A stretch of 38,600 nt of DNA from a virus: IMG/VR virus record IMGVR_UViG_3300017963_000465, positions 1 through 38,600 of that record. The stretch is one strand, 5' to 3'. Positions 14,467 through 30,781 of this stretch are shown one piece after another. Position 1 is the first letter of the stretch, and each line of letters starts with the position of its first letter. The position numbers and the translations under genes are program-made. The notes under the pieces were generated by a model. That model had not been told where the DNA came from. It saw only the letters and a list, made by a program, of their open reading frames with translations, and ran no database searches.

Positions 14467-17400
14467 TCACTGGTACCCGAGAATCTCCTGGGAAGCATCT
14501 CTGGATCTTGCAGCTCGTGCGGTCCGTCCACCCTTCCCCTTTGACGGAGCCCCGCCTGTCTTCAAGTTGGCCACCTGCGAAATAAGACGCTCGAACCGAG
14601 CAACGTAGTCCTTCCAGTACCAGTTCGGGGAATGGGTGGCCTGGAACAACGCATCCTGCCAGTCCTGCCCCTCTTCCATGAGAGCCGGCCCCGGAGCTGC
14701 GGCGGCCATGTCCTCGGCCCGGACGATCTCCTTGGCCGCCTTCACGCGCGCGAGCGCGGCCGCAACGCGCCCGAGCTCATCGGCCACTGCGTCCACGTCC
14801 TCGGTGATAGCTTCCACTGCCATCGCTGTGATCTCGAGCACCGTCGACCACATATCCACGAACTGGCCCTGGATGTTCTGCGACATCTTGTCGAAGACTT
14901 CTTCCACGACGCGCGAGTGCCCGATCAGCTCCATCTGATACCGAGCCTTCCAGTTGATCAGGTGCAGCAAAGAGAGGTTTAGTCCGTCCTCCACCGTCGC
15001 TGGGAAGTGGTCGATGAACGTAGCGACTGCCTGCTTCCCAATCTCCTCGAACACTTCAGAAGAGCCCGCACCCACATCGGGGGCTTCCGCCCCTGCGGCT
15101 GCTCCAGACGTAGACAAACCCTGAAGAGCCCCCTGGAACCATCCATGCAACAGCGGCCAAGCAGCCTGCATACCGGCCAAGAAGTTTGTCACAAACGCCG
15201 CCCCAGACTTCGCCAACCCGCGCAGCGGACTCTCTGGGTTCTTCGGCTCAGAGAACGGCAAGTAGCTCTTGATCTCATCAACCGTATCCGTGACCGCCGA
15301 GACCGCCTCCGACCCGGCAGCCTTGATCCCTTCGACAAACTGCCGAATGAGAGCTTCTCCCGCTTCGTACATCTTGGTCCCGAGCTCCGAGAAGAAATTC
15401 GGGAGAGTCTCCGTGAACCAGGTCCCTATACCGTCAAGAGCGCTCAGGAACGGCTGAACGATGTAGGCATCAACAGACGTAGACACGAGCTCCGGCAAAT
15501 TCGCCAACCAAGTGATGGCATCGAAAAACGCTTGCGTAATAGCAGACGCCACTGCCGAAACGCCTTCACCGAACGCCAGGAGATCGGCTTCCATCTCTGC
15601 AAAGCGCTCAGCGGTCCGTTCGACGAGGAAGTTGTAGGCCGCCAAAATGGCATTCGGAATGTCCTCATAGAAGAAGGCGACAATCCTGTCTTTCAGGGCC
15701 ACCACCTGCTCACCCAAGAAAACAAAGAACTCCTGTCCGGCCAGTTTCACGGTCTCCCAGAGATGATCCAGGAACCCGAAAGCGAGCCGTAGCTCCTCGC
15801 CGATGCTGGGGAACGTCTCCGCAACCCAGTTGATGACCCCCTCGAAGAGCCCCATAACAGCGTCGCCAAACCACTCGATACCCTTCCACGCCATCTTGAA
15901 GATGCCGACCACGAGCTCCGGGATCGAGCTGATAATCTTCACAGGGATGTCCCAGAACATCGTTTTGAAGATCCACAGCGCCATGTCGATCAGGAAGGGT
16001 ACGGCCTTGGGCAGGAGGTCCCGTAGGGCGTCTCCTAGCATGCCGAACGACGCCGCAGCGTGCTCCGGCAAATTGACGAGGAACTCGAGGAAGATGTCGA
16101 TGGCAGATTCGAGCATCCCCGGCAACCGATCCGCCAGGTCCTCGAAGAAGGGCCCCAGCCCCGCCAGGATACCCATCAAACCGTCCGCCACCCGGGCATG
16201 GAGGTCCGTCATGGACTCTCCGACCTTGACGTTCACCAAGAAGTCCAGCGCGTTGTCGAAGAGCGACACCAAGGCCGACCCAAGGACCCCAACGTAGGTC
16301 CCCAAAGCCTCCCCGAGCTTGCTCACGAACTTGCCCATCTCCGGGCTCGTGAGCGCATCCCAAGCACGCTTAGCAGCCGCAAACACCCCTTGGAAGATCG
16401 AATCCCAGGGGATAGCTCCCAGGACGCTCGCGATGGTGCGATAGGCTTTCTCTGCGCCTCCTCCTATCGCCTTGAAGACCTCGCCCCACTCGATCCGCTG
16501 GATGCGCTTCGCGAGGCTCTTCACCAAACCGCCGACCACGAGCCGAGCCACCTCAGCCATGCGCTCGATAATCCGGCCAACAGGAGTCTTCGCCTCCTTG
16601 TTCGGGTCGAAAATGGCAATGATCTCATCCCAGAGCATTGGCAGAATGCTCTTCGCCGTGCGGTCCCCTGCAGAGAACAGCTTGTCGAAGACACCGTCCC
16701 ACCATGCCTCCCAGCCACCTCCAGGGCCCTCTACCTCCCAAGCGTCCTCCCACAGAGAGGCCACCATCTTGTCGGCCTCGTCCGCAATGAACCGTAGACC
16801 CTTCCAAAGCTCCCCTGCCACGTCCCGTAGAAGCCCCGGGAGCATCTTCACGACTTGCTTCACGCCCTCGACGATGGCCTTCGCAGTCTCCTTGATACCC
16901 GCCTTGGTACGCTCATCAGCGGCCTTCTGGATGTCCCCTCGCCACTGCGCAATCTTCTCTTCCCTGGATGCTATTTTAGCCTTGATACCTGCCGTCTCGA
17001 GCCCCTTCTTCTCCGCCTTCTCCAGTGCCTTCCGCTGATTCTCCAGCGCCTTGGTCTCGGCCTTGATCCCCTTCGCTGCCTTCACGGAGAGCTGCTTCTT
17101 CTCGAGATCCCTCCGCACACGGTCGTACTCCACCGTGCCCTCTGTGAGAGTGGTCAACTTCTTCTCGAGACTCTTGATCGCCTTCTCTTCCCTCCTGACG
17201 GCCTTGTTCGACCTCATGAGGGTGTCCACGTGCATCTGCGCATCGTCTCGAGCCGTCTTGAAAGCGACCCCGACCGCCAGCACCCCCGCAGCAAAGAGCC
17301 CCATCGGACTCAAGAGGTGCTTGAACTGAAACCCCATGGAACCGAGCATCGTAACCATGGGAGCGGCTTCGTTCACCACCGTCCCCATCACCGTGGCCAT

Positions 17401-19155
17401 CGGGCGCAGCGTCCTGGGCACGAGAGCGAGAGCCCCAATCTGGTGCATCTCAGACATCTTCGTGACCATGGACGCCATCGGGCCACCCTTTTCCACGATG
17501 GCGCTCAAGGTCTTGTTGAACTCCCGGAACTGGCGCGTAGTGTCGCGGACGAACTCCCGGGCAGCCTCGCGCCCATGCTTTCGGAAACCCACAACAAAGG
17601 AATCCTTCGCCCGATCGAAGATCTCCTGCAGTGTCCGCCCTGTCCGGTGCGCATCGCCAGCAAAGTCATCCAAGGTCCGCTGAGACTTCCGAACCTCCTC
17701 CATCATCTCCCTGGCAGCCTTTCCGGCCCCCTCTTCACCTTCCTGGAAGGCCAACAGGAACTGCTCCGCCTGAGTAGGATCCAGCGCCTTTGACAACTGC
17801 GCCCGCAGGAAGTTGAGAGTGTCTGGTTCCATCGCAGACCAGTCCAACAGACTCATGGCTTTCATGAAGTCCGCTGGACCTCCGGTCATGAGCTCCATCG
17901 CCGTGTTCACGTCCCCAGTGGCCACTGCCAAAGATTCGAGCAGCTGCGGCGCGTCTGCTCCAATACCGCCAAACAGATCCGAGAACTCGATGTTCGCTTC
18001 GGTAAGAGATGTTGCCAACCCCATCACGAGTTGTCGCGTCTGCTCCGAATCCTGGTTGAACTGGAACATCGCCACGCCAGCTTCCGCAACCTGGATCATG
18101 AAGTCTTCGACCTGCTCAGGCGTGTCCCCCAATGCGCGTCGTCGGGCAGCGAGTTCCGTCAACTCGGTATTCATCATGTTGATGGCGCCCGGAACATCCC
18201 CGGTCTTGTCCCCCATGAAAAGCATGGCCCGAGAAATGTTCCCGACCTGCTCCGTCGACATTTTGAGCTGACGAGTCATCCGCATCGAAGCGTTACGCAC
18301 GCTGTCGATGGCAACACCGCCAGACTCGAGCTTTGCCACGGCCTTGGCGCTCTTGAAGCCCATCGCTTCGAGCTCGTCACCCGCTTCGTCGAATGCCCGG
18401 ACTGCTTGCGCAGCACTCTCTTCGCCCACGTTCAAGCTGTACGCGATCCCGGCAGCCTCCTTGGTAAACTTGTTCAGCTGCTTCCCGGCATAACCCATCT
18501 GAGCGCCCTGAGCTCGGGCCGCCTTCCCCAGAGAAGCCATCTCGGCCTCGAGCCCCGTCGTCAGATTGATACCCCCTGTGAGCGCATCCCCGAGCCCAGC
18601 CGCCTTGTCTTTCATGGCTTCCAGGCTCTGCAGAAACGTCTGCATCTTCATCTGGCCGAGCATCTTGTTGAAGGTGCCCATGGCTTCGCCAAGCCCCTGC
18701 ACCTTCGTCAGACCCGCTCCTGCTACCCGGGGGAGCGCCGCAAGTGGAGCCTTGACGATCGCACTCAGTGTTTTCCCTAGTCCAGCAATGCTCTTCTCGG
18801 TCTTGTCGACCTGATCTTCCACCTTCTCGAATGCTTCCTCGGCCTTGTCACCGAAGTCCTCGGCGCCTTCGGTTGCGTCCTCCAGCGCATCAAAAGCATC
18901 CGTCAGGGACTCCTCCAGGCGCTCCACCCCGTCGAGGTCCATGCCTTCCAAGATCTCGTAGAAGTCCGACATCGAGCTCGCAAAGTCGTCCACGAGACCC
19001 GTGTCGAAGGCTTCATCGAGGGTCTTCCCTGCCTCTCCCGCCTTTTTTTGGGCAGTCGTGGCAGCACCCTCGATGTCGACGAAGCCCTCTTCAACCTTCC
19101 CCTGGAAGTCCGTGATACCAGCGTCTTCAGCACCGAAAGAAAAGCCCAACCCCAT
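14467..19155 (-). CDS. Tail tape measure protein (1562 aa)
   Basis: Length, position (after the frameshifted chaperone, before the baseplate genes) and composition identify the tape measure, whose length sets tail length. At about 1.5 angstrom per residue this predicts a tail near 230 nm. The N-terminus (MGLGFSFGAEDAGITDFQG) is followed by Ala/Glu-rich helices. A hydrophobic patch MGLFAAGVLAVGVAF (about residue 615) is followed by a long coiled coil with repeated E-K-K and K-A-L-E-K heptads. Many W-x-x-x-F and I-x-x-F-L helices follow, then a basic C-terminus. No peptidase or lysozyme domain is seen. The best Shine-Dalgarno (GGGGGTGA) lies about 20 bases before the ATG, which is poor. This may reflect the homing endonuclease inserted just upstream. 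Confidence 0.93.
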   Translation of the reverse strand: MGLGFSFGAEDAGITDFQGKVEEGFVDIEGAATTAQKKAGEAGKTLDEAFDTGLVDDFASSMSDFYEILEGMDLDGVERLEESLTDAFDALEDATEGAEDFGDKAEEAFEKVEDQVDKTEKSIAGLGKTLSAIVKAPLAALPRVAGAGLTKVQGLGEAMGTFNKMLGQMKMQTFLQSLEAMKDKAAGLGDALTGGINLTTGLEAEMASLGKAARAQGAQMGYAGKQLNKFTKEAAGIAYSLNVGEESAAQAVRAFDEAGDELEAMGFKSAKAVAKLESGGVAIDSVRNASMRMTRQLKMSTEQVGNISRAMLFMGDKTGDVPGAINMMNTELTELAARRRALGDTPEQVEDFMIQVAEAGVAMFQFNQDSEQTRQLVMGLATSLTEANIEFSDLFGGIGADAPQLLESLAVATGDVNTAMELMTGGPADFMKAMSLLDWSAMEPDTLNFLRAQLSKALDPTQAEQFLLAFQEGEEGAGKAAREMMEEVRKSQRTLDDFAGDAHRTGRTLQEIFDRAKDSFVVGFRKHGREAAREFVRDTTRQFREFNKTLSAIVEKGGPMASMVTKMSEMHQIGALALVPRTLRPMATVMGTVVNEAAPMVTMLGSMGFQFKHLLSPMGLFAAGVLAVGVAFKTARDDAQMHVDTLMRSNKAVRREEKAIKSLEKKLTTLTEGTVEYDRVRRDLEKKQLSVKAAKGIKAETKALENQRKALEKAEKKGLETAGIKAKIASREEKIAQWRGDIQKAADERTKAGIKETAKAIVEGVKQVVKMLPGLLRDVAGELWKGLRFIADEADKMVASLWEDAWEVEGPGGGWEAWWDGVFDKLFSAGDRTAKSILPMLWDEIIAIFDPNKEAKTPVGRIIERMAEVARLVVGGLVKSLAKRIQRIEWGEVFKAIGGGAEKAYRTIASVLGAIPWDSIFQGVFAAAKRAWDALTSPEMGKFVSKLGEALGTYVGVLGSALVSLFDNALDFLVNVKVGESMTDLHARVADGLMGILAGLGPFFEDLADRLPGMLESAIDIFLEFLVNLPEHAAASFGMLGDALRDLLPKAVPFLIDMALWIFKTMFWDIPVKIISSIPELVVGIFKMAWKGIEWFGDAVMGLFEGVINWVAETFPSIGEELRLAFGFLDHLWETVKLAGQEFFVFLGEQVVALKDRIVAFFYEDIPNAILAAYNFLVERTAERFAEMEADLLAFGEGVSAVASAITQAFFDAITWLANLPELVSTSVDAYIVQPFLSALDGIGTWFTETLPNFFSELGTKMYEAGEALIRQFVEGIKAAGSEAVSAVTDTVDEIKSYLPFSEPKNPESPLRGLAKSGAAFVTNFLAGMQAAWPLLHGWFQGALQGLSTSGAAAGAEAPDVGAGSSEVFEEIGKQAVATFIDHFPATVEDGLNLSLLHLINWKARYQMELIGHSRVVEEVFDKMSQNIQGQFVDMWSTVLEITAMAVEAITEDVDAVADELGRVAAALARVKAAKEIVRAEDMAAAAPGPALMEEGQDWQDALFQATHSPNWYWKDYVARFERLISQVANLKTGGAPSKGKGGRTARAARSRDASQEILGYQ

Positions 19156-19173: not shown

Positions 19174-20016
19174 TCACCCCCTGTAGCAAACCGATGCCTG
19201 CTCGTACTTACGAGCACACCGCGTTCCCATAGTGGAGTCCGCGTAGAGCCACCCCGCCAACTTCCGGGTCTCTGATACAACCAAATCGAAACGGAACGCC
19301 TCCGCATCTCGCACAGCGCCCTTGTACCGATACCTTGTACAAACCTCCCTCACGGAAGGCCGAATGCCGGCTCTCGATAGAACGCGGGAGAGCCCACCTG
19401 CAAAAGCAGAAGACGCCGTCAAGTATACAGCCCGTACAGACTTACCACGCACGCACCAAGACCCGTCCGAATCCCACAGCCCCCTGACGAAATGAGGCAG
19501 GCACGAAGTAGAAAGAGAAGGAAACAGCATAGAAGAAGCCTTCGACCCAGACTCCATCCCCAAAGACTTCAGAGAATACAGCATCCGCTTCGAAGACCAC
19601 GCCGCCCGCCAACAGGAGACGTCTCTCATCTTCGACACCTTACCCCCAAAGCCAACGAGATCCGAAGCCGCCCGCACGACCTGCTCAGACCCCGCCAAGA
19701 GGACCTGGTAACTCACCCCCTCGATCTCCTGCAGGTGTCCGTCCCCGTACAATAGCCCCAGAACCCAGGCGGCCGAGGCTGTCAAAGCACCCTCGAAGAA
19801 GTCCTCATTCAAAGGAACCCTCCGCAAACGGCCCTGCTGACGCGCCAGCGTCACTGCCTCCGCACGAGTACGAAGAGCGCCCACGTTCTTCAAGTGCGTC
19901 CGTACCAAACGCCCAGAACGACCGAGCCGCTCCCCGATCTGATTCGAAGATAGACCCTCCTCGTACAGAGCCCTCATCTCTGCCCGTTCCTTTCCCGTAA
20001 CCGGCCGGCCCCGCAT
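19174..20016 (-). CDS. LAGLIDADG homing endonuclease with N-terminal HTH
   Basis: I chose the ATG at 20016 for its strong AGGAGGTGCTG Shine-Dalgarno; the frame stays open upstream without support. The 280-residue protein has two LAGLIDADG motifs: AWVLGLLYGDGHL (83-95, Asp92) and FVRGLWDSDGSW (176-187, Asp184). Both catalytic acids are present, so it is probably a single-chain active enzyme. Residues 9-45 form a helix-turn-helix (YEEGLSSNQIGERLGRSGRL) of the kind fused to homing enzymes for extra DNA contact. It stands free between the chaperone and the tape measure, with no room for a group I intron core outside the ORF. A near-copy of the tape-measure start lies on its far side. LAGLIDADG enzymes are rarer in phages than HNH or GIY-YIG ones. 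Confidence 0.9.
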   Translation of the reverse strand: MRGRPVTGKERAEMRALYEEGLSSNQIGERLGRSGRLVRTHLKNVGALRTRAEAVTLARQQGRLRRVPLNEDFFEGALTASAAWVLGLLYGDGHLQEIEGVSYQVLLAGSEQVVRAASDLVGFGGKVSKMRDVSCWRAAWSSKRMLYSLKSLGMESGSKASSMLFPSLSTSCLPHFVRGLWDSDGSWCVRGKSVRAVYLTASSAFAGGLSRVLSRAGIRPSVREVCTRYRYKGAVRDAEAFRFDLVVSETRKLAGWLYADSTMGTRCARKYEQASVCYRG

Positions 20017-20165
20017 CAGCACCTCCTGTGGAAACACCACACCACACGAAAGTACCAACATCGCAGAGAACGCACAACGAAAAACCATACCCCATGAAAT
20101 ACGGAGCTCAGATTTCCGCTTTCCGATCACCTTTCAACCCCCGGAAGGCCGCCCGAAGACTACGG

Positions 20166-21085
20166 CTACGTGCGCTTCTTCTTCATGCGCTCGTTGTAGT
20201 CGCGTTTCCAGAGTACCAGACGACGCCTCCGAGGGGCAGGCATTCGCATTATGTCATCGTGGGGTATTCCGAATTCGTGGATGAGGAAGAACGTCTCCGC
20301 TTCCAGCGCTGCTGCGTGTCCGAAGGGAAGAAAAAACTCGGCTCCGAAGGATCCACCTCCTTCTCGAACTCGTAACCGCACACCGGACACGTCAGGTCCA
20401 CAGCCGTCTCCACGCCGCCTTCGAACTCATCAATCTGGGCACGGAGGAAGTCCCGGTCCCCCGAACACAAACGAGCCAGCCTGTTCGCATCGGCCGGCTC
20501 CCCATCGAGGGCCTCCACACGTAGGAGTAGATTCAAGGTGAGGAGCCCGATCCGCTTCTTGAGCTCGTCCCGCTTCGCCTCGTCTGCACCGCACATGGGC
20601 CTCCAAACCACGATGCTCTTCGAACGCGGGAGTGTCACCTCGTACATGCGCTTCTTCTGCTGCGGCATGGGGTAAACATCCAGGGTGGAGAGATCTACCC
20701 GGTAAATCTCGTTGGACCCACAAGTCCTGTCTGGACATTTCTGCCGGAACGGGAAAATGTCTCCGTGAGTGATGCGACGGAGTGCAAAGAACAGGAAAGT
20801 CCGATCGCCCAGAAGGAGCCTCGGCACGATGCCCCGAATCCGCCCCTTGTCGGTGATTTCGCCGATCCGCTCGATACACCCGGCCAAGAAGAGATTCATC
20901 TTGTCTGCCGCACGCACGCGACGACTCGCGAGAAGGTCTTCCTCGATGCCTGTGAACGCACGCAACAGCACCTCGTCATGAAGGACCTGCTCATCGTCCA
21001 AATAGCCGCAGAGGAGCTTGTGCACCCCGTGAGTGCCTTCTGCATCCCGCAATTGATTGTCGACTAGGGTATCAACGACATCCAT
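20166..21085 (-). CDS. Tail assembly chaperone, predicted -1 frameshift product (306 aa)
   Basis: A ribosomal slip of -1 at the heptamer at 20330-20336 would join the first 252 residues of the chaperone to 54 residues read in the -1 frame down to the stop at 20166. The joined tail contains LPFGHAAALEAETFFLIHEF and GIPHDDIMRMPAPRRRR, then a basic end. This looks like the helical C-terminal extension of long-form tail chaperones. Short and long chaperone forms made by a -1 shift just upstream of the tape measure are a conserved feature of long-tailed phages. An alternative is that the six-T run is a sequencing error and the whole gene is in one frame. Confidence 0.75.
20249..21085 (-). CDS. Tail assembly chaperone, gp26-like, zero-frame product
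   Basis: This 278-residue protein sits directly before the tape-measure locus, where tail chaperones that coat the tape measure during assembly are encoded. The middle has RLLLGDRTFLFFALRRITHG followed by paired zinc ligands C117-C122 and C233-C236 (CPDRTC and CPVC). This is the layout of T4 gp26/gp51-type baseplate hub assembly proteins of large myoviruses. After residue 252 the zero frame turns into a low-quality Arg/Ser tail ending SEYPTMT. The alternative -1 frame carries a well-behaved domain (next entry). The start has a GAGG Shine-Dalgarno and overlaps the previous gene by 14 bases. Confidence 0.8.
   Translation of the reverse strand: MDVVDTLVDNQLRDAEGTHGVHKLLCGYLDDEQVLHDEVLLRAFTGIEEDLLASRRVRAADKMNLFLAGCIERIGEITDKGRIRGIVPRLLLGDRTFLFFALRRITHGDIFPFRQKCPDRTCGSNEIYRVDLSTLDVYPMPQQKKRMYEVTLPRSKSIVVWRPMCGADEAKRDELKKRIGLLTLNLLLRVEALDGEPADANRLARLCSGDRDFLRAQIDEFEGGVETAVDLTCPVCGYEFEKEVDPSEPSFFFPSDTQQRWKRRRSSSSTNSEYPTMT
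20330..20336 (-). promoter_or_regulatory. Programmed -1 ribosomal frameshift slippery heptamer
   Basis: Read on the minus strand this is T TTT TTC, spaced exactly as X XXY YYZ relative to the chaperone zero frame (codons TTT at 20335 and TTC at 20332). After a one-base slip both tRNAs re-pair as TTT TTT and reading continues with CTT CCC in the -1 frame. The heptamer type is a known efficient slippery sequence. No attempt was made to prove a downstream structure, although GC-rich sequence follows. Confidence 0.78.
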
Positions 21086-21491
21086 CTTCTACCTCATCTC
21101 TCCCGGGCATACAGCTCTGCACGTACTCCGGGGCCTCTTCCACCTCCATGTCCTTGACGTCGAACATGGGCATCGGGCTGAACTCCACCCACTCCATAGC
21201 GACCCCGTCCTTCGTTGCGTCCAGGTCGAAATAGCCGAAGCGGTCCGCGGTACCTCCCTCGAAGGCATAGCAACGAACCTTCCCGCCTGTGGTCTCAGAC
21301 GGATAGAGCCATATCTCCAAGGGCCCCTGATCCGAAAGCGCTTCGCGGAGCGTCTTCGAGCCGCCTTCCTCGGGGACCTGCACAGCTCTCTCGAAGCGGA
21401 TCTCATCCGTGGCCGAGGTCACGTGCTTGCACCCAATGGTCTCGCCGGTCTTCGGCACGTAGACAATGAAGCGGTATCGCTGGAAGAACAT
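21072..21491 (-). CDS. Small tail-operon protein, unknown (139 aa)
   Basis: The ATG at 21491 overlaps the upstream stop (ATGA) and follows AAGGAGCTGTG. The longer frame beginning at 21629 is rejected. The protein begins with a strand FFQRYRFIVYVPKTGETIG, has a Gly-rich middle (VRCYAFEGGTADRFGYF) and an acidic C-terminus (VKDMEVEEAPEYV). It lies between the zinc/RHH protein and the chaperone and overlaps the chaperone by 14 bases. No family is recognised. A tail assembly role is only suggested by context. Confidence 0.65.
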   Translation of the reverse strand: MFFQRYRFIVYVPKTGETIGCKHVTSATDEIRFERAVQVPEEGGSKTLREALSDQGPLEIWLYPSETTGGKVRCYAFEGGTADRFGYFDLDATKDGVAMEWVEFSPMPMFDVKDMEVEEAPEYVQSCMPGRDEVEDGCR

Positions 21492-22111
21492 CACAGCTCC
21501 TTCTTCGCCAAAAGAGGCACCGTGTCCGTTCGGTACAGCATCAAGAGAGACACAAGCGTCCCCGTCACCGTGCAATTCTGGAGAGCGGCCGCAGCCTTGA
21601 AGAGCGCATACGTGGATCGTCCGATCCAAACGTTGACCTTCACCCTGTCATCCGTTGACCTGTCGTCCTGGAAATTCCCCAAGTCGTCAAAGCGATCGGG
21701 ATCAGTCACATAGCGCTCGACAAGTCCGCGCACGAGCCCCGTGAAAGACCGATAACCATTCCGGGAAGCAATGGCCTGGGTGACGGACTCGTGCAACCCC
21801 CTGGATAACATGAAGCACACGACACGAGTATCCTCGGACTTCGACTTTGTCGATGAGTCGAGCGCCATCTCACAGGCCCGACAGAGGAGCACCGCATTGG
21901 TAGCCACCTCCTTCCCCCCGGCTTCCGGGGGAACCACCAAGCGAACTCTGAGCCTCTCCTCGAAGCCGCAGTTCGCACACCTCGACTGGTGGCGCCTCCA
22001 AACAGCGCGCTCATAGTCCTGTTCCAGGTCTCGTCCATTGCCAAAGACTTCGAGGTCCTTGGCCATCTTCGCAAGGTCCACCTTCACCACAGGCACTTTG
22101 TCCGTCCCCAT
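21491..22111 (-). CDS. Zinc-finger (degenerate HNH-like) plus tandem RHH-like protein (206 aa)
   Basis: Residues about 37-83 hold CANC and CRAC pairs around V-V-P-P-E-A-G-G, with T-N-A-V-L-L-C after them. This has the zinc scaffold and central Asn of an HNH nuclease, but the catalytic His pair is replaced (V-R-L-V where V-H-H-I is usual) and the last His is Glu. The nuclease is therefore probably dead. The rest shows two similar 38-residue units (RVVCFMLSRGLHESVTQAIA and RVKVNVWIGRSTYALFKAAA), each with the strand-helix-helix rhythm of ribbon-helix-helix DNA-binding domains. The start has GTAGGAGGGGCGGT. A good promoter lies just upstream, so it may be a regulator, possibly autoregulated, placed inside the tail operon. 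Confidence 0.65.
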   Translation of the reverse strand: MGTDKVPVVKVDLAKMAKDLEVFGNGRDLEQDYERAVWRRHQSRCANCGFEERLRVRLVVPPEAGGKEVATNAVLLCRACEMALDSSTKSKSEDTRVVCFMLSRGLHESVTQAIASRNGYRSFTGLVRGLVERYVTDPDRFDDLGNFQDDRSTDDRVKVNVWIGRSTYALFKAAAALQNCTVTGTLVSLLMLYRTDTVPLLAKKEL

Positions 22112-22481: not shown

Positions 22482-23207
22482 TCACAGATCGCTCAGACTG
22501 ATCTCGTCGATGTAGTCGACCTCGATGTCAAGCTCCATGATGCTGACCTCGCTCGAAGTCGCATCGAAATCACTCCCGGATTTGTATCGGATAGGAATAC
22601 AACCAACCAACTTCCAAGCTCGCGCCGGAATCTTCGAGAGCAGGCGTTCCCCTCCAGCGATAGGCCCGAAGCTCAAAAGGGACCCCCCGAACGCCGTCGC
22701 CGTGATCTCCGCAATAAGCGGAAAGAGCTCGATACTGGCATCGTCCACATGCGAAAAGTACTGCACGAGGAGCAAATCTCGGCGTGGAGAAGGGCCGCCG
22801 ATCCGAGGAAACCCAAACGCCCCGGCAACAGCCCCTAAAACTCCCAACCCATCCAAGCTGCCGCCGCCCCTCGCCAACCCCGTCGCCAAGCCGTAAGTAG
22901 ACGACTGATAATTCTCGGGATCGCCCGTGACCGCGGTTTGCACCCAACGCCAGAAGTCGCTGTCCGCGAAGGTCGCCCCTCGAGACAGGGTCATCGTGCC
23001 AATTTTGGCCGACTTGACGAAGGCTTTGGTGTAGTGCCAGTTGCCCTCTTTGACCTCGTGCGTTTCGATCTCGATCTCTGGCGCTGTGATTGCGGAGAAC
23101 CCGAACATGGGTGTGAAAACAGGCAGCGCCAGAGCTTCGATGGGCGCGATGTCCATCAGCCAGAATCTGTTGGTTTGGAGGTGATCGTTCAACTCCGAAC
23201 GCGGCAC
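22482..23207 (-). CDS. Tail tube protein (first paralogue, gp19/TIGR02241-like, 241 aa)
   Basis: It starts at GTG with a GGAGGTGAACT Shine-Dalgarno. The core matches contractile-tail tube proteins: EIEIETHEVKEGNWHYTKAF, IGTMTLSRGATFADSDFWRW, and at the end WKLVGCIPIRYKSGSDFDAT followed by SSEVSIMELDIEVDYI. Between these lies a Gly-rich insertion (about 110-145, LGAVAGAFGFPRIGGP) not present in the shorter paralogue next door, suggesting an extra surface loop or a specialised tube end. Two tube paralogues in tandem occur in several large myoviruses. This one may be a terminal or baseplate-proximal tube form. Confidence 0.82.
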   Translation of the reverse strand: MPRSELNDHLQTNRFWLMDIAPIEALALPVFTPMFGFSAITAPEIEIETHEVKEGNWHYTKAFVKSAKIGTMTLSRGATFADSDFWRWVQTAVTGDPENYQSSTYGLATGLARGGGSLDGLGVLGAVAGAFGFPRIGGPSPRRDLLLVQYFSHVDDASIELFPLIAEITATAFGGSLLSFGPIAGGERLLSKIPARAWKLVGCIPIRYKSGSDFDATSSEVSIMELDIEVDYIDEISLSDL

Positions 23208-24516: not shown

Positions 24517-27093
24517 TCATGCGTTGAGAGTCTTCTGCGTGAACCGGAAGCGAACGAACTCGGCAGGCTTGAGCGGAGCAAGGGCGACGTCGATAACGAC
24601 CTCCCCGTTGTCGATGCTCTCCTGCGTATTGTTCGTGCTGTCCACGATGACCCTGAAAGCCTCCGAGGAGCTCGAGCCCGCGAACAGCCCGTTGTTGAAC
24701 TGGAGCAGCAGGAAGCCGTCCAGCTGAGCCTTGATTCGACCCCAGAGCGTCGGCCCGTTGGGCTCGAACACGATCCAGTGGGTGGCGTTGTAGATGCTTC
24801 GCTCGATGAACATGAACATCCGCCGCACCGGCACGTACCTCCAGTCGCTCTGACTGGAAATCGTCCGGGTACCCCAGACCGCAGTCCCCGTCTCCGGGCC
24901 CGAGACCAGAGCGTTGATCCGGTTCGGATTGAGGATGTCCAGCTCGCCCTGCTCCGGCACCGTCTCCAGGCTGGAGAAGAAGCGGATCTGCCCATCCACC
25001 GTTCCGGCCGGCGCCTTCGCGACATTCCGAGTGGTGTCCGTTCGCGCGTAGATACCCGCGATGTGACAGACAGCCGACATGAGGAGGTCCCGGTTGTCGC
25101 TGAGCGGGTCCGCCACATTGATCCACGGCCAATACATCGCCGCGAACTTGCTCTGGCGGTTCAGCGTGAACCGATACCAGTCGACCGCCTCCTGAGCGGT
25201 GAGTCCACTCGGAGGCTGCAGAATAGCGAAACGGTCTCCACCAGACGGCTGGCTCTCCCGACCATCAACGTAGTCGAGGATGTCGCCCGTGATGGTGACG
25301 TCTCCGACGAAGTCGGGGATGCAGAGCTGCAGGAGCTCCCGCACCTTGGTGAGAGCGTAGAGACCCTCGTAGGTCGGGATGAGAGTCGGGCTGGTGAACT
25401 GATCACGACCCCATTCGTTGGGATCCGTGAACGTTCCATCCGCCCCCTGTGCCCACAGCGCCTCGGGACCGCCGGCAGGCCAGGTGTACTTCGTCTGGTC
25501 GCCGAAGTCCGCCGTGTGGGCGGTCTCGACCGGCGCCGCGTAGTACATCACCGTCACCAGGGTGTTGGCGTCGGCTGCCGTGTCCAGCGTGACATCGATC
25601 GCGCCATCGGTATAACCGATGGTGTTTGTTCCAGCGGCGTCGACATCTCCGGTCAGGTTCCCGGAACCATCATCGATGATGGTCTTCGCAGCTCCACCGG
25701 AAGTGTAGGAGATCGTGACAGTGCGGGGCTGCACTGGCACCTCGCCGAGATCCTCCTGAATGAGGGGTAGTCCGGTCGCTGTCCCGTCGCCTCCAGCGGC
25801 GAGGACACGAGACATCAGCCGCGTGTTCAGAGCGCCGGGAACTTCATCTCCACCAGGCTCCGTCACAGCGATGATATCGGACAGGTCGTTGAGCACGTCC
25901 GGGAAGTACTTCCCAGAAGTCGAATCCGAAAAATCGACCTCCTCGTACTGCTCCTGCACGGAGTAGCCGCCCAGCGACGTGTTGTAGAGCCAGACGTTGA
26001 CGTTCCACGCCGAGTACAACCCGGTGTCCGCATCGTAGTTGTCGACGTTACCCTCGACCGTCACCCGGATGTCGTCGCCCCAAGTCCCAGCACTGATAGG
26101 GTTCATGTCCCAGGCATCGATGATGTAGTCCACCAAGATTGGGGACCCATCATGCGGAGCCGTGGTAGCCGTGAAGTCCCAGGCCCCCGTCTCGTAGTCG
26201 ATGTTGCCAGCGGACACATCACCGGCCAGAGTCCCAGCCGTCGCCGAGTCGTCACAGCCCTTGTCCACAGACGCCGGGGTGCACGCAATGCCGATCGCCG
26301 CCGCATCAGGGACCTCCGTGACATCGAAAGTCACCGTGAAGATGCCCGTGACACAGTCCAGAGTGGCCACCGTACCTGCCACCGTACTCCCGGTCATCGT
26401 TCGACCATCCGCAGCCAGCGTCGTGAAGTCGAGCGTGGTAGGAGCCGCACCTACGAGCCAGTCGAGCTGAGTCGCGGCCGCCGAAGTGTCCGGCACGATC
26501 GCCAGGAGCTTCTCATCGATGCCGTCAAAGTCCGCCGCGATGGTTGGGAGAATGCCAGGAGGCACTCGACCTTCGAAGCTGAGCTCGGCACCATCTCCGA
26601 CAAGCAGAGTGGTTCCATCCCGCTCGACGCACTGCGTCGAAGCGACAGGCGTGTCCGCCTCGCGCCACCGGATGGACATGCTGAAGGGCACGATCGGCGT
26701 GTCGCCACCGTTCACCTTCAGCTGGGTGGTCAGGGCAGTCTCCGAGAACACCGTCTGGGATCCATCGCCCGTGTCCAGCTCGAAGTCGTACTGAGCCGAC
26801 TGGAGCTTGGCTTCCGACATATCAGCGTCGCCAGGCACGACACGAACAACGTAGGCTCTACGCCCTCCATTTGCGAAGTACGCCGCCATCGCCAGCGGCA
26901 AGTAACTGTTCTGCGTCAAGTCACCGAACAGGCGCGTGAACTGCTCGAAGCTCGTAACAAGCGTGGCTTCGTTCACAGGACCTTTCGTGGTGAACCCGAC
27001 GACACCGAGATTCGAAGTCGACACCCCCTGGACCACTTGGACCTGGGAGGGAATCTCCTCGATGAAGACTCCAGGAGCGAGCAGCTCGGCCAT
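24517..27093 (-). CDS. Tail sheath protein (858 aa)
   Basis: The N-terminus MAELLAPGVFIEEIPSQVQ is the classical sheath start, followed by GVVGFTTKGPVNEATLVTSF and NGGRRAYVVRVVPGD. The C-terminal half has the conserved core: FAILQPPSGLTAQEAVDWYR, SKFAAMYWPWINVADPLSDN, the GTRTISSQSDWRYVPVRR signature and a final VVIDVALAPLKPAEFVRFRF. It is about 200 residues longer than T4 gp18. The extra length is a beta-rich Asp/Thr/Gly insertion between residues about 100 and 470, including two copies of a D-D-G-S-x-N-L-x-G-D-V-type motif, which probably protrudes from the sheath. The Shine-Dalgarno is GGAGG with a 7-base spacing. Confidence 0.93.
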   Translation of the reverse strand: MAELLAPGVFIEEIPSQVQVVQGVSTSNLGVVGFTTKGPVNEATLVTSFEQFTRLFGDLTQNSYLPLAMAAYFANGGRRAYVVRVVPGDADMSEAKLQSAQYDFELDTGDGSQTVFSETALTTQLKVNGGDTPIVPFSMSIRWREADTPVASTQCVERDGTTLLVGDGAELSFEGRVPPGILPTIAADFDGIDEKLLAIVPDTSAAATQLDWLVGAAPTTLDFTTLAADGRTMTGSTVAGTVATLDCVTGIFTVTFDVTEVPDAAAIGIACTPASVDKGCDDSATAGTLAGDVSAGNIDYETGAWDFTATTAPHDGSPILVDYIIDAWDMNPISAGTWGDDIRVTVEGNVDNYDADTGLYSAWNVNVWLYNTSLGGYSVQEQYEEVDFSDSTSGKYFPDVLNDLSDIIAVTEPGGDEVPGALNTRLMSRVLAAGGDGTATGLPLIQEDLGEVPVQPRTVTISYTSGGAAKTIIDDGSGNLTGDVDAAGTNTIGYTDGAIDVTLDTAADANTLVTVMYYAAPVETAHTADFGDQTKYTWPAGGPEALWAQGADGTFTDPNEWGRDQFTSPTLIPTYEGLYALTKVRELLQLCIPDFVGDVTITGDILDYVDGRESQPSGGDRFAILQPPSGLTAQEAVDWYRFTLNRQSKFAAMYWPWINVADPLSDNRDLLMSAVCHIAGIYARTDTTRNVAKAPAGTVDGQIRFFSSLETVPEQGELDILNPNRINALVSGPETGTAVWGTRTISSQSDWRYVPVRRMFMFIERSIYNATHWIVFEPNGPTLWGRIKAQLDGFLLLQFNNGLFAGSSSSEAFRVIVDSTNNTQESIDNGEVVIDVALAPLKPAEFVRFRFTQKTLNA

Positions 27094-29700: not shown

Positions 29701-30146
29701 GACGCCGCCAGCTCCTTCTCCGTCTCAGCAATCCTCTCCCACAGGGTCTGCCGCCGGGGTCCCAAGAGCTGCACCACCGTGACGAGGCGCTGTCCGTCCT
29801 TCAGAACCACCGGAACGTTTGGAGTATCCCTGTGAACGGGCTGCATCGACCGGAGATACTCCACATGCTCCTCACACACCCCCACGATGCGCTCCCGACC
29901 ACTCACCAGGATACCGTACTTTGACTCACGCGCACACACGAAACACCAATCCGAGAAACGGCCCTCCGACATAGGACCCTCGTACTCATGGAACGTGTCC
30001 CCTTTGATCGGACCGCCGCAGTCATCCACTGCTGTGCATCGGGTCCCAGGCAGTCCGAACTCGCGCCCGCGCCAGAACCTCAAACACACGGCGCACACCG
30101 GCGAAACGCCCTGCGCAACGTAGACTGCCACCCGGTCAGCGTTCAC
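29697..30146 (-). CDS. Multi-cysteine zinc-binding protein (149 aa)
   Basis: I chose the GTG at 30146 because it overlaps the upstream stop (GTGA) and has GGAG at 7 bases. The ATG 69 bases further upstream would force a 73-base overlap. The cysteines are arranged CAVC, then C-T-A-V-D-D-C, then CFVC, then C-E-E-H, with H in TFHEYEGPMSEGRFSDW. This suggests one or two zinc sites. The end is a helix with WERIAETEKELAAS. It lies within the neck gene run. Small zinc proteins occur among assembly factors of large phages, but the exact role is unknown. Confidence 0.65.
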   Translation of the reverse strand: MNADRVAVYVAQGVSPVCAVCLRFWRGREFGLPGTRCTAVDDCGGPIKGDTFHEYEGPMSEGRFSDWCFVCARESKYGILVSGRERIVGVCEEHVEYLRSMQPVHRDTPNVPVVLKDGQRLVTVVQLLGPRRQTLWERIAETEKELAAS

Positions 30147-30781
30147 GGGCACTCTCCAGTCGTCCCCTGCCCGAAGAGCTTTTGCTCCGGTGGATAGGAA
30201 GTGTAGCGTCGGCACTCGAGAGTGAACCCGACAAACGCAGGGCCATCGAAGAGGTGCCCGTCATCCGCAGCCTGGATCACGTCGAAAAAGTACCCCCCGA
30301 AATTTGGGTCACTCCGGATCACAGACGCCTGATCGAAAAAAGGCAAATCCCAGAACTCGATGATGTCCCCCTCCACGGGAGAAGGCACGCCGCGCCTCTC
30401 CATCTCGACCCGAGCGATCCAGACGTTACACCGGAACTCAACCGCCGCCCCCTCCTCTCTCGTCTCCCCCGTACTGGTCGGATACGACACGAAGGCATCG
30501 ATCTCGTAAGGGCCCTTGTAAGCAAACGAGATGGGCTCCCCGTAGACCGGGTCATAGACCGTGTTTGACTGGTCCTGAGCGTAATACTTGAGCTTCGTGC
30601 CAGCGATAGCTGTGTGTTCTTGAGCCCACAGGTCAAAGAGCTCCAACTCCCGATCATCCAGGTACATCGGAGCTGTCCCCACCTCGACCCCGTGGTCCTG
30701 TCCGAGCCCATGGGAATCTCCGGGGCCACCACCAGGAGCCATGAGGAAGTCGAGATCTGGGACGTTGTGGTGCCTCTTCAT
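30143..30781 (-). CDS. Neck structural protein candidate (212 aa)
   Basis: The N-terminus is Gly/Asp-rich (DFLMAPGGGPGDSHGLG). The folded part has TKLKYYAQDQSNTVYDPVYG followed by ISFAYKGPYEIDAFVSYPT, then AAVEFRCNVWIARVEMERR, VEGDIIEFWDLPFFD and FTLECRRYTSYPPEQK. The Y-D-P-V-Y-G-E-P to A-x-V pattern with a later G-D-I-I-E-F strand is one I associate with neck and head-completion proteins of large myoviruses. That link is from memory of the pattern, not a search. It lies between two other neck candidates. Confidence 0.6.
   Translation of the reverse strand: MKRHHNVPDLDFLMAPGGGPGDSHGLGQDHGVEVGTAPMYLDDRELELFDLWAQEHTAIAGTKLKYYAQDQSNTVYDPVYGEPISFAYKGPYEIDAFVSYPTSTGETREEGAAVEFRCNVWIARVEMERRGVPSPVEGDIIEFWDLPFFDQASVIRSDPNFGGYFFDVIQAADDGHLFDGPAFVGFTLECRRYTSYPPEQKLFGQGTTGECP

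Follow-up and report, generated by a model that had tools for sequence, protein, structure and literature searches.

A gp26-type gene among the tail genes of a contractile-tailed phage very probably yields a short and a long tape-measure chaperone by ribosomal frameshifting, a one-gene arrangement that T4-like enterophages would have replaced with the paralogous genes 26 and 51. The gene lies in a window of 38,600 nucleotides, the whole stretch of DNA analysed here (positions 1 to 38,600 of IMG/VR record IMGVR_UViG_3300017963_000465). A wider interpretation, which we consider likely, holds that PF12322 is a frameshift-regulated family of tape-measure chaperones of contractile phages, that its junction is crossed by -1 or +1 shifting, that gp51 descends from the long form of gp26, and that at least one cyanophage open reading frame (ORF) annotated as a "catalyst" is the frameshift tail of gp26.

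The window gene and its surroundings

A sequence-only reading of the window had proposed a programmed -1 frameshift in a gp26-type tail chaperone, at a T TTT TTC heptamer in phase with codons 251-252 and followed by 54 open codons in the -1 frame. Both elements are present as described, the heptamer running from 20336 to 20330 on the minus strand and the shifted frame from CTT at 20330 to the TAG at 20168-20166. The site, its phase and a predicted two-product layout follow from the sequence. The relevant features, all on the minus strand, are listed below.

20249..21085 (-), gp26-like short form, zero-frame ORF of 278 aa (ORF list and translation)
20330..20336 (-), slippery heptamer T TTT TTC; codons 250-252 read AGT TTT TTC, the heptamer being in phase after AGT
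20166..20330 (-), -1 frame extension, 54 codons and a stop, from CTT at 20330 to TAG 20168-20166
20720..20737 (-), first Cys pair, CPDRTC, residues 117-122; C117 and C122 invariant in the family alignment
20378..20389 (-), second Cys pair, CPVC, residues 233-236, shortly before the shift site; C233 and C236 invariant
20355..20362 (-), candidate stimulator 18 nt before the heptamer, the Shine-Dalgarno-like AAGGAGGT
14467..19155 (-), tape measure protein, on which the chaperone presumably acts (phrog_305, E 3.4e-21; phrog_58; phrog_167)
22482..23207 (-), tail tube protein (phrog_4542, E 1.2e-8)
24517..27093 (-), tail sheath (phrog_23, E 5.7e-58)
19174-20130 (-), LAGLIDADG/HTH ORF downstream of the chaperone, putative homing endonuclease (Pfam/PHROG)
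21491-22111 (-), HNH-like ORF upstream of the chaperone, putative homing endonuclease (Pfam/PHROG)

In the predicted long form, the zero-frame body is joined at Phe252 to the extension, giving the junction peptide SEPSFF-LPFGHAAALEAETFFLIHEFGIPHDDIMR. By count, the motif is not rarer in the window than expected by chance (2 observed against 2.22 expected), and the case therefore rests on the relatives, in which site, phase, codons and extension are kept, with some further weight from a weak DUF6760 match of the -1 part. A chance heptamer was rejected on this conservation, although the window count equals expectation. The second T TTT TTC (30335-30341, minus strand) is in phase with the ORF at 30143-30781, and its -1 frame closes after a few codons.

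Together, the sheath, tube and tape measure genes identify a contractile-tailed phage. The chaperone gene had been placed just before the tape measure, which is correct insofar as the tape measure is the next tail gene, but the LAGLIDADG/HTH ORF intervenes. Two putative homing endonucleases flank the chaperone between the tube and tape measure genes, and neither Pfam nor PHROG matches the 105-aa ORF (21089-21406, minus strand) that separates the HNH-like ORF from the chaperone. In SP-15, LIS04 and immuto, the chaperone directly precedes the annotated tape measure, bar one short ORF. An ORF of at least 300 aa lies within 700 nt behind the extension in 17 of the 65 IMG/VR loci judged.

The window protein matches the Pfam family PF12322 (T4_baseplate) at E 1.9e-5 and 24.9 bits, just above the cut-off of 24.5; its fused form, at 24.1 bits, falls just under. 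Corresponding scores are 43.5 bits for a relative found through its sheath gene (L274) and 245.4 for cyanophage gp26. The protein also matches phrog_150, baseplate hub (E 2e-7), and its AF2 model (mean pLDDT 84) has gp26-like baseplate hub proteins as its best BFVD matches (E 1.3e-20), consistent with a gp26-like fold; a PDB fold search with the model gave no match. The Pfam search of the protein returned PF12322 only and none of the known gpG/TAC tail-chaperone families. Because Pfam homology to gpG/TAC is absent, the protein is classed as working like gpG/gpGT rather than as a member of that group. The -1 extension matches PF20546 (DUF6760) at E 0.0009 and 19.7 bits, below the 27-bit cut-off.

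The shift site and extension among relatives

Searching viral contigs with the window protein alone retrieved no relative, and a plasmid tblastn search with the extension gave nothing better than E 0.9. Among the first four relatives, LR756511 has T TTT TTC followed by a -1 extension, and in SP-15, GXN1 and BRock TTT C precedes a comparable extension read in the +1 frame. An unbiased IMG/VR scan used patterns from the protein parts upstream of the shift site; 80 of its 167 confirmed loci were kept, and removal of 14 exact duplicates and one truncated gene left 65 unique genes. In 64 of these 65, the same Phe-Phe carries a shift site followed by an open extension, with T TTT TTC (-1) as the site in 40 and TTT_CGN/CAY (+1) in 24. 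The exception, L053, reads TTT TTT CGA near its contig end. A second scan, in which FFFP was among the protein patterns searched for, yielded 35 new unique genes after 45 exact duplicates were set aside, and all 35 are of the -1 type.

Fourteen further unique loci came from 13 phage records and one MAG contig, the latter (L086) being the sole relative in a scan of genome contigs. Six are of the -1 type, two of the +1 type and six outside the strict definition: LIS04 (TTT TTT AGT), LR756508 (TTT CTA TTC), Mel-JY01 (TTT TTT TGG), immuto (TTT CTT TGG), XacN1 (GCT TTT TTT ATT) and Slicko01 (no Phe-Phe). The first five of these nonetheless have an open extension in a shifted frame. Altogether, an in-phase site with an open shifted extension is present in 108 of 115 unique complete loci, window included; the survey figures are given as counts rather than as a probability because related sequences are not independent. 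Clustered by similarity, the loci other than the 14 form 50 clusters of the -1 type, 21 of the +1 type and one other.

Several variants of the site were seen. In L088, L089 and L091, the extension lies in the +1 frame behind CTA TTC, TTT TGG and CTT TGG, respectively, and the CTT TGG of L091 resembles the CUU_U slip of prfB. Alishewanella phage Slicko01 (L090) has an extension-like peptide in the +1 frame and no recognisable site. L073 and L074 read AAC TTT TTT TTC, the heptamer being displaced by one codon and the T run longer.

Two relatives were reached through the sheath gene rather than the chaperone. One (L273) is identical over 567 residues, and its stretch has no chaperone gene. In the other, L274, the PF12322 gene ends in SFFSL* with an in-phase heptamer, and the -1 extension is 41% identical to that of the window over 54 aa (E 8.9e-11); the zero-frame tails of the two differ, whereas the -1 extension is kept. 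The comparison with homologues that the sequence-only reading had suggested thus finds both the heptamer and the -1 extension conserved. A T run of different length that would count against the proposal was not seen, the shift site staying in phase in the relatives.

At the codon level, the first Phe of the site is TTT in all 76 -1 genes, against 47% TTT elsewhere in the same ORFs. The second is TTC in 74 of 76, and the preceding codon ends in T in 74 of 76; these counts are to be read knowing that the strict -1 class requires TTTTTTC, and no gene of the unbiased scan lacked both motifs. No such constraint is seen at the third base of the CCN codon immediately behind FFF (25 C, 23 A, 17 T, 11 G). 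Among the 24 genes of the +1 type, the first Phe may have either codon (16 TTT, 8 TTC), the second is TTT in all 24, and the next codon always starts with C (CGT 14, CGA 5, CGC 2, CAT 2, CAC 1), a count that is partly by definition because the strict +1 class requires TTT then C. Of the 25 genes in the unbiased scan that are not of the -1 type, 24 fit the strict +1 class, and the one left over, L053, shows these codons too.

The extension is evolving as a protein under strong purifying selection, as judged from its coding sequence after the zero-frame stop: 52 pairs give a pooled dN/dS of 0.055, with 328, 200 and 1051 differences at codon positions 1, 2 and 3. Extensions of the -1 and +1 types align as one domain (47 sequences, from 84 cluster representatives with an extension), of which 8 match DUF6760 at E<=0.05. 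Pfam matches of the extensions to Tma16 (13/47) and to other non-phage families were judged to be helical-sequence noise. Recoding appears, from these comparisons, to be the norm among the relatives sampled, T4-like enterophages excepted, so that the earlier description of the gp26/gp51 class as less often frameshifted was an understatement.

Cyanophage genes and T4 gp26 and gp51

A cyanophage gp26 set was assembled by keeping 80 of 591 confirmed loci and removing 17 exact duplicates, which left 63 unique genes. Within this sample, T TTT TTC lies in phase no more than 10 codons from the gp26 stop in 63/63 and is followed by a long -1 extension in 62/63. One annotated cyanophage record, Sf-FS3, calls the -1 ORF "baseplate hub assembly catalyst", which is how gp51 is named.

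T4 gp26 and gp51 both match PF12322. The former terminates at the junction (LKEFFELL) and the latter goes on past that point. Accordingly, a profile of the family fused in silico aligns with gp26 as far as the junction and no further (E 4.5e-12), its alignment with gp51 continues beyond that point (E 1e-5), and an equivalent fused cyanophage profile aligns with gp51 end to end through the junction (E 5.3e-15). The cyanophage extension alone matches the gp51 C-terminus at E 5.4e-11, with none of 200 column shuffles scoring as high; the general extension profile against the same C-terminus gives a modest result (score 20.7, probability 27%, 0/200 shuffles as high). PHROG 634, "baseplate hub assembly catalyst", matches gp51 and, among 47 extensions, one, the +1 extension of L006 (E 3.3e-4). 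A quick tree recovers gp51 as one clade (98), joins T4-like gp26 with gp51 (92) and then adds the frameshifted genes of cyanophages (99), the order that duplication of a single frameshifted gene would produce; some of its branches are long, among them that of the window, whose placement is unsure.

Alternatives, mechanism and known systems

The extension could instead be a separate small protein, initiated at its own start codon and not fused to the body. GTG codons occur at 20390 and 20381 in the window -1 frame, a possible start codon is present in the extension frame of 63/63 unique cyanophage genes (80 of 591 confirmed loci), and the ORF is entered as a gene in one record. Against this, the extension frame lacks ATG, GTG and TTG as far as 16 codons beyond the site in 55 of 76 -1 genes and 10 of 24 +1 genes, and separate initiation leaves the locked shift codons unexplained. 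The -1 frame opens merely 7 nt before the site in 40 of the 76. Given also that T4 gp51 has both parts fused in a single frame, with homology running through the junction, a separate protein is improbable.

Slippage of RNA polymerase on the T6 run, which would produce mRNAs of varied length and so the long form, draws on the run itself in the window and its greater length in L073 and L074. It is very unlikely in view of the 8 of 24 +1 genes that have TTC TTT then C, with only three consecutive T; moreover, the codon lock would fit codon-anticodon re-pairing on T TTT TTC, not run length alone. Hardly any credence is left for a sequencing error or decaying gene in which one base was lost and both parts were once in one frame. 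Homopolymers are prone to sequencing error, and T4 gp51 carries both parts in frame, but an error of this kind is at odds with the 108 of 115 unique complete loci that have an in-phase site and open shifted extension, with the 62 of 63 cyanophage genes that do likewise, and with the strong purifying selection on the extension. The one-frame arrangement, anticipated as a possible objection, does exist in gp51, but as a separate paralogue beside short gp26, which points to two products rather than to sequencing error.

The preferred reading is programmed frameshifting during translation, with which the comparative sequence evidence fits. Most ribosomes would stay in the zero frame and make the gp26-like short form with its variable tail. 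At U UUU UUC, the paired Phe tRNAs would in a minority of passes move back by one base, and the resulting long form would consist of that body joined at Phe252 to a DUF6760-like domain of 54 aa; we infer slippage, its efficiency and the minority share of the long form from sequence. By analogy with lambda, both forms may act as chaperones that bind tape measure and tube, coating the tape measure protein and, at the baseplate hub, supplying it with tube subunits. In the family as a whole, this one junction would be reached by -1 (U UUU UUC) or +1 (UUU_CGN/CAY) shifting, and in T4-like enterophages the frameshift would have been replaced by the paralogues 26 (short form) and 51 (long form, in frame).

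Possible stimulators were sought in a sample of 50 -1 and 21 +1 cluster representatives. In the -1 set, downstream RNA structure was not above shuffles (mean z -0.09 against -0.05 in control windows) and upstream Shine-Dalgarno sequences showed no clear enrichment (0.22 at the site against 0.15 background); AAGGAGGT is not a family trait. Neither feature gave a clear signal in the -1 or the +1 sample.

A literature search of partial coverage, which does not prove absence, found no description of a frameshift in PF12322 or in gp26/gp51. A chaperone role had been proposed before: "tape measure protein assembly chaperone" is the label that gp26 and gp51 alike bear in the Stupor record; the link to frameshifting is the part not found. 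T4 gp51 is an essential hub protein of unknown function, and if the proposal is true, it is a descendant of a frameshifted long gp26. This would offer a testable answer both to its function and to the seeming lack of a frameshifted chaperone in T4. It would also put right annotations of T4-like cyanophages and jumbo phages that overlook the extension or enter it as a small gene of its own, and would provide a natural series, useful for the evolution of recoding direction, in which one protein junction is reached via -1, +1 or gene duplication.

Several known systems offer comparison. Strong DUF6760 matches occur in 5 of 151 sampled bacterial genomes (loci L185-L189), in the -1 frame behind an ORF of ~115 aa. 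Four of the five extensions are without start codons, and the sites are G GGA AAC or G GGG GAA; one locus (L187) has a T4 gp19-type tube gene upstream. Two of the five ~115-aa ORFs were searched in Pfam, with no match. These loci possibly encode a frameshifted chaperone of prophages or contractile injection systems. The window resembles them in that its -1 part weakly matches DUF6760, also in the -1 frame, and differs in its heptamer.

For the +1 class, the closest comparison is influenza A PA-X, whose site is UCC_UUU_CGU; according to the available text of PMC3498833, PA-X-type sites prefer CGN in the A site. The +1 relatives likewise have UUU_CGN at the shift point in 21 of 24 genes, although they are phage tail chaperone genes and their +1 shift is predicted from sequence. 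As for T4, gp26 and gp51 are described as hub assembly chaperones, and gp51 as required yet absent from the particle, in the available text of a review (PMC3004832) in which the word frameshift does not appear. The window gene belongs to the same family, PF12322, with gp26 corresponding to the short form and gp51 to the long form, but T4 has two separate genes.

The lambda gpG/gpGT and P2 gpE/E' tail assembly chaperones, reportedly treated by Xu, Hendrix and Duda in 2004, each consist of a short product and a frameshifted long product of one gene near the tape measure, with a slippery heptamer. The window gene, which one putative endonuclease ORF separates from the tape measure gene, shares the heptamer and, as predicted from its sequence, a short and a long product. 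It differs from both in its body, which is PF12322 with two Cys pairs and without a Pfam tail-chaperone match, and in belonging to a family that uses -1 or +1 at one homologous junction.
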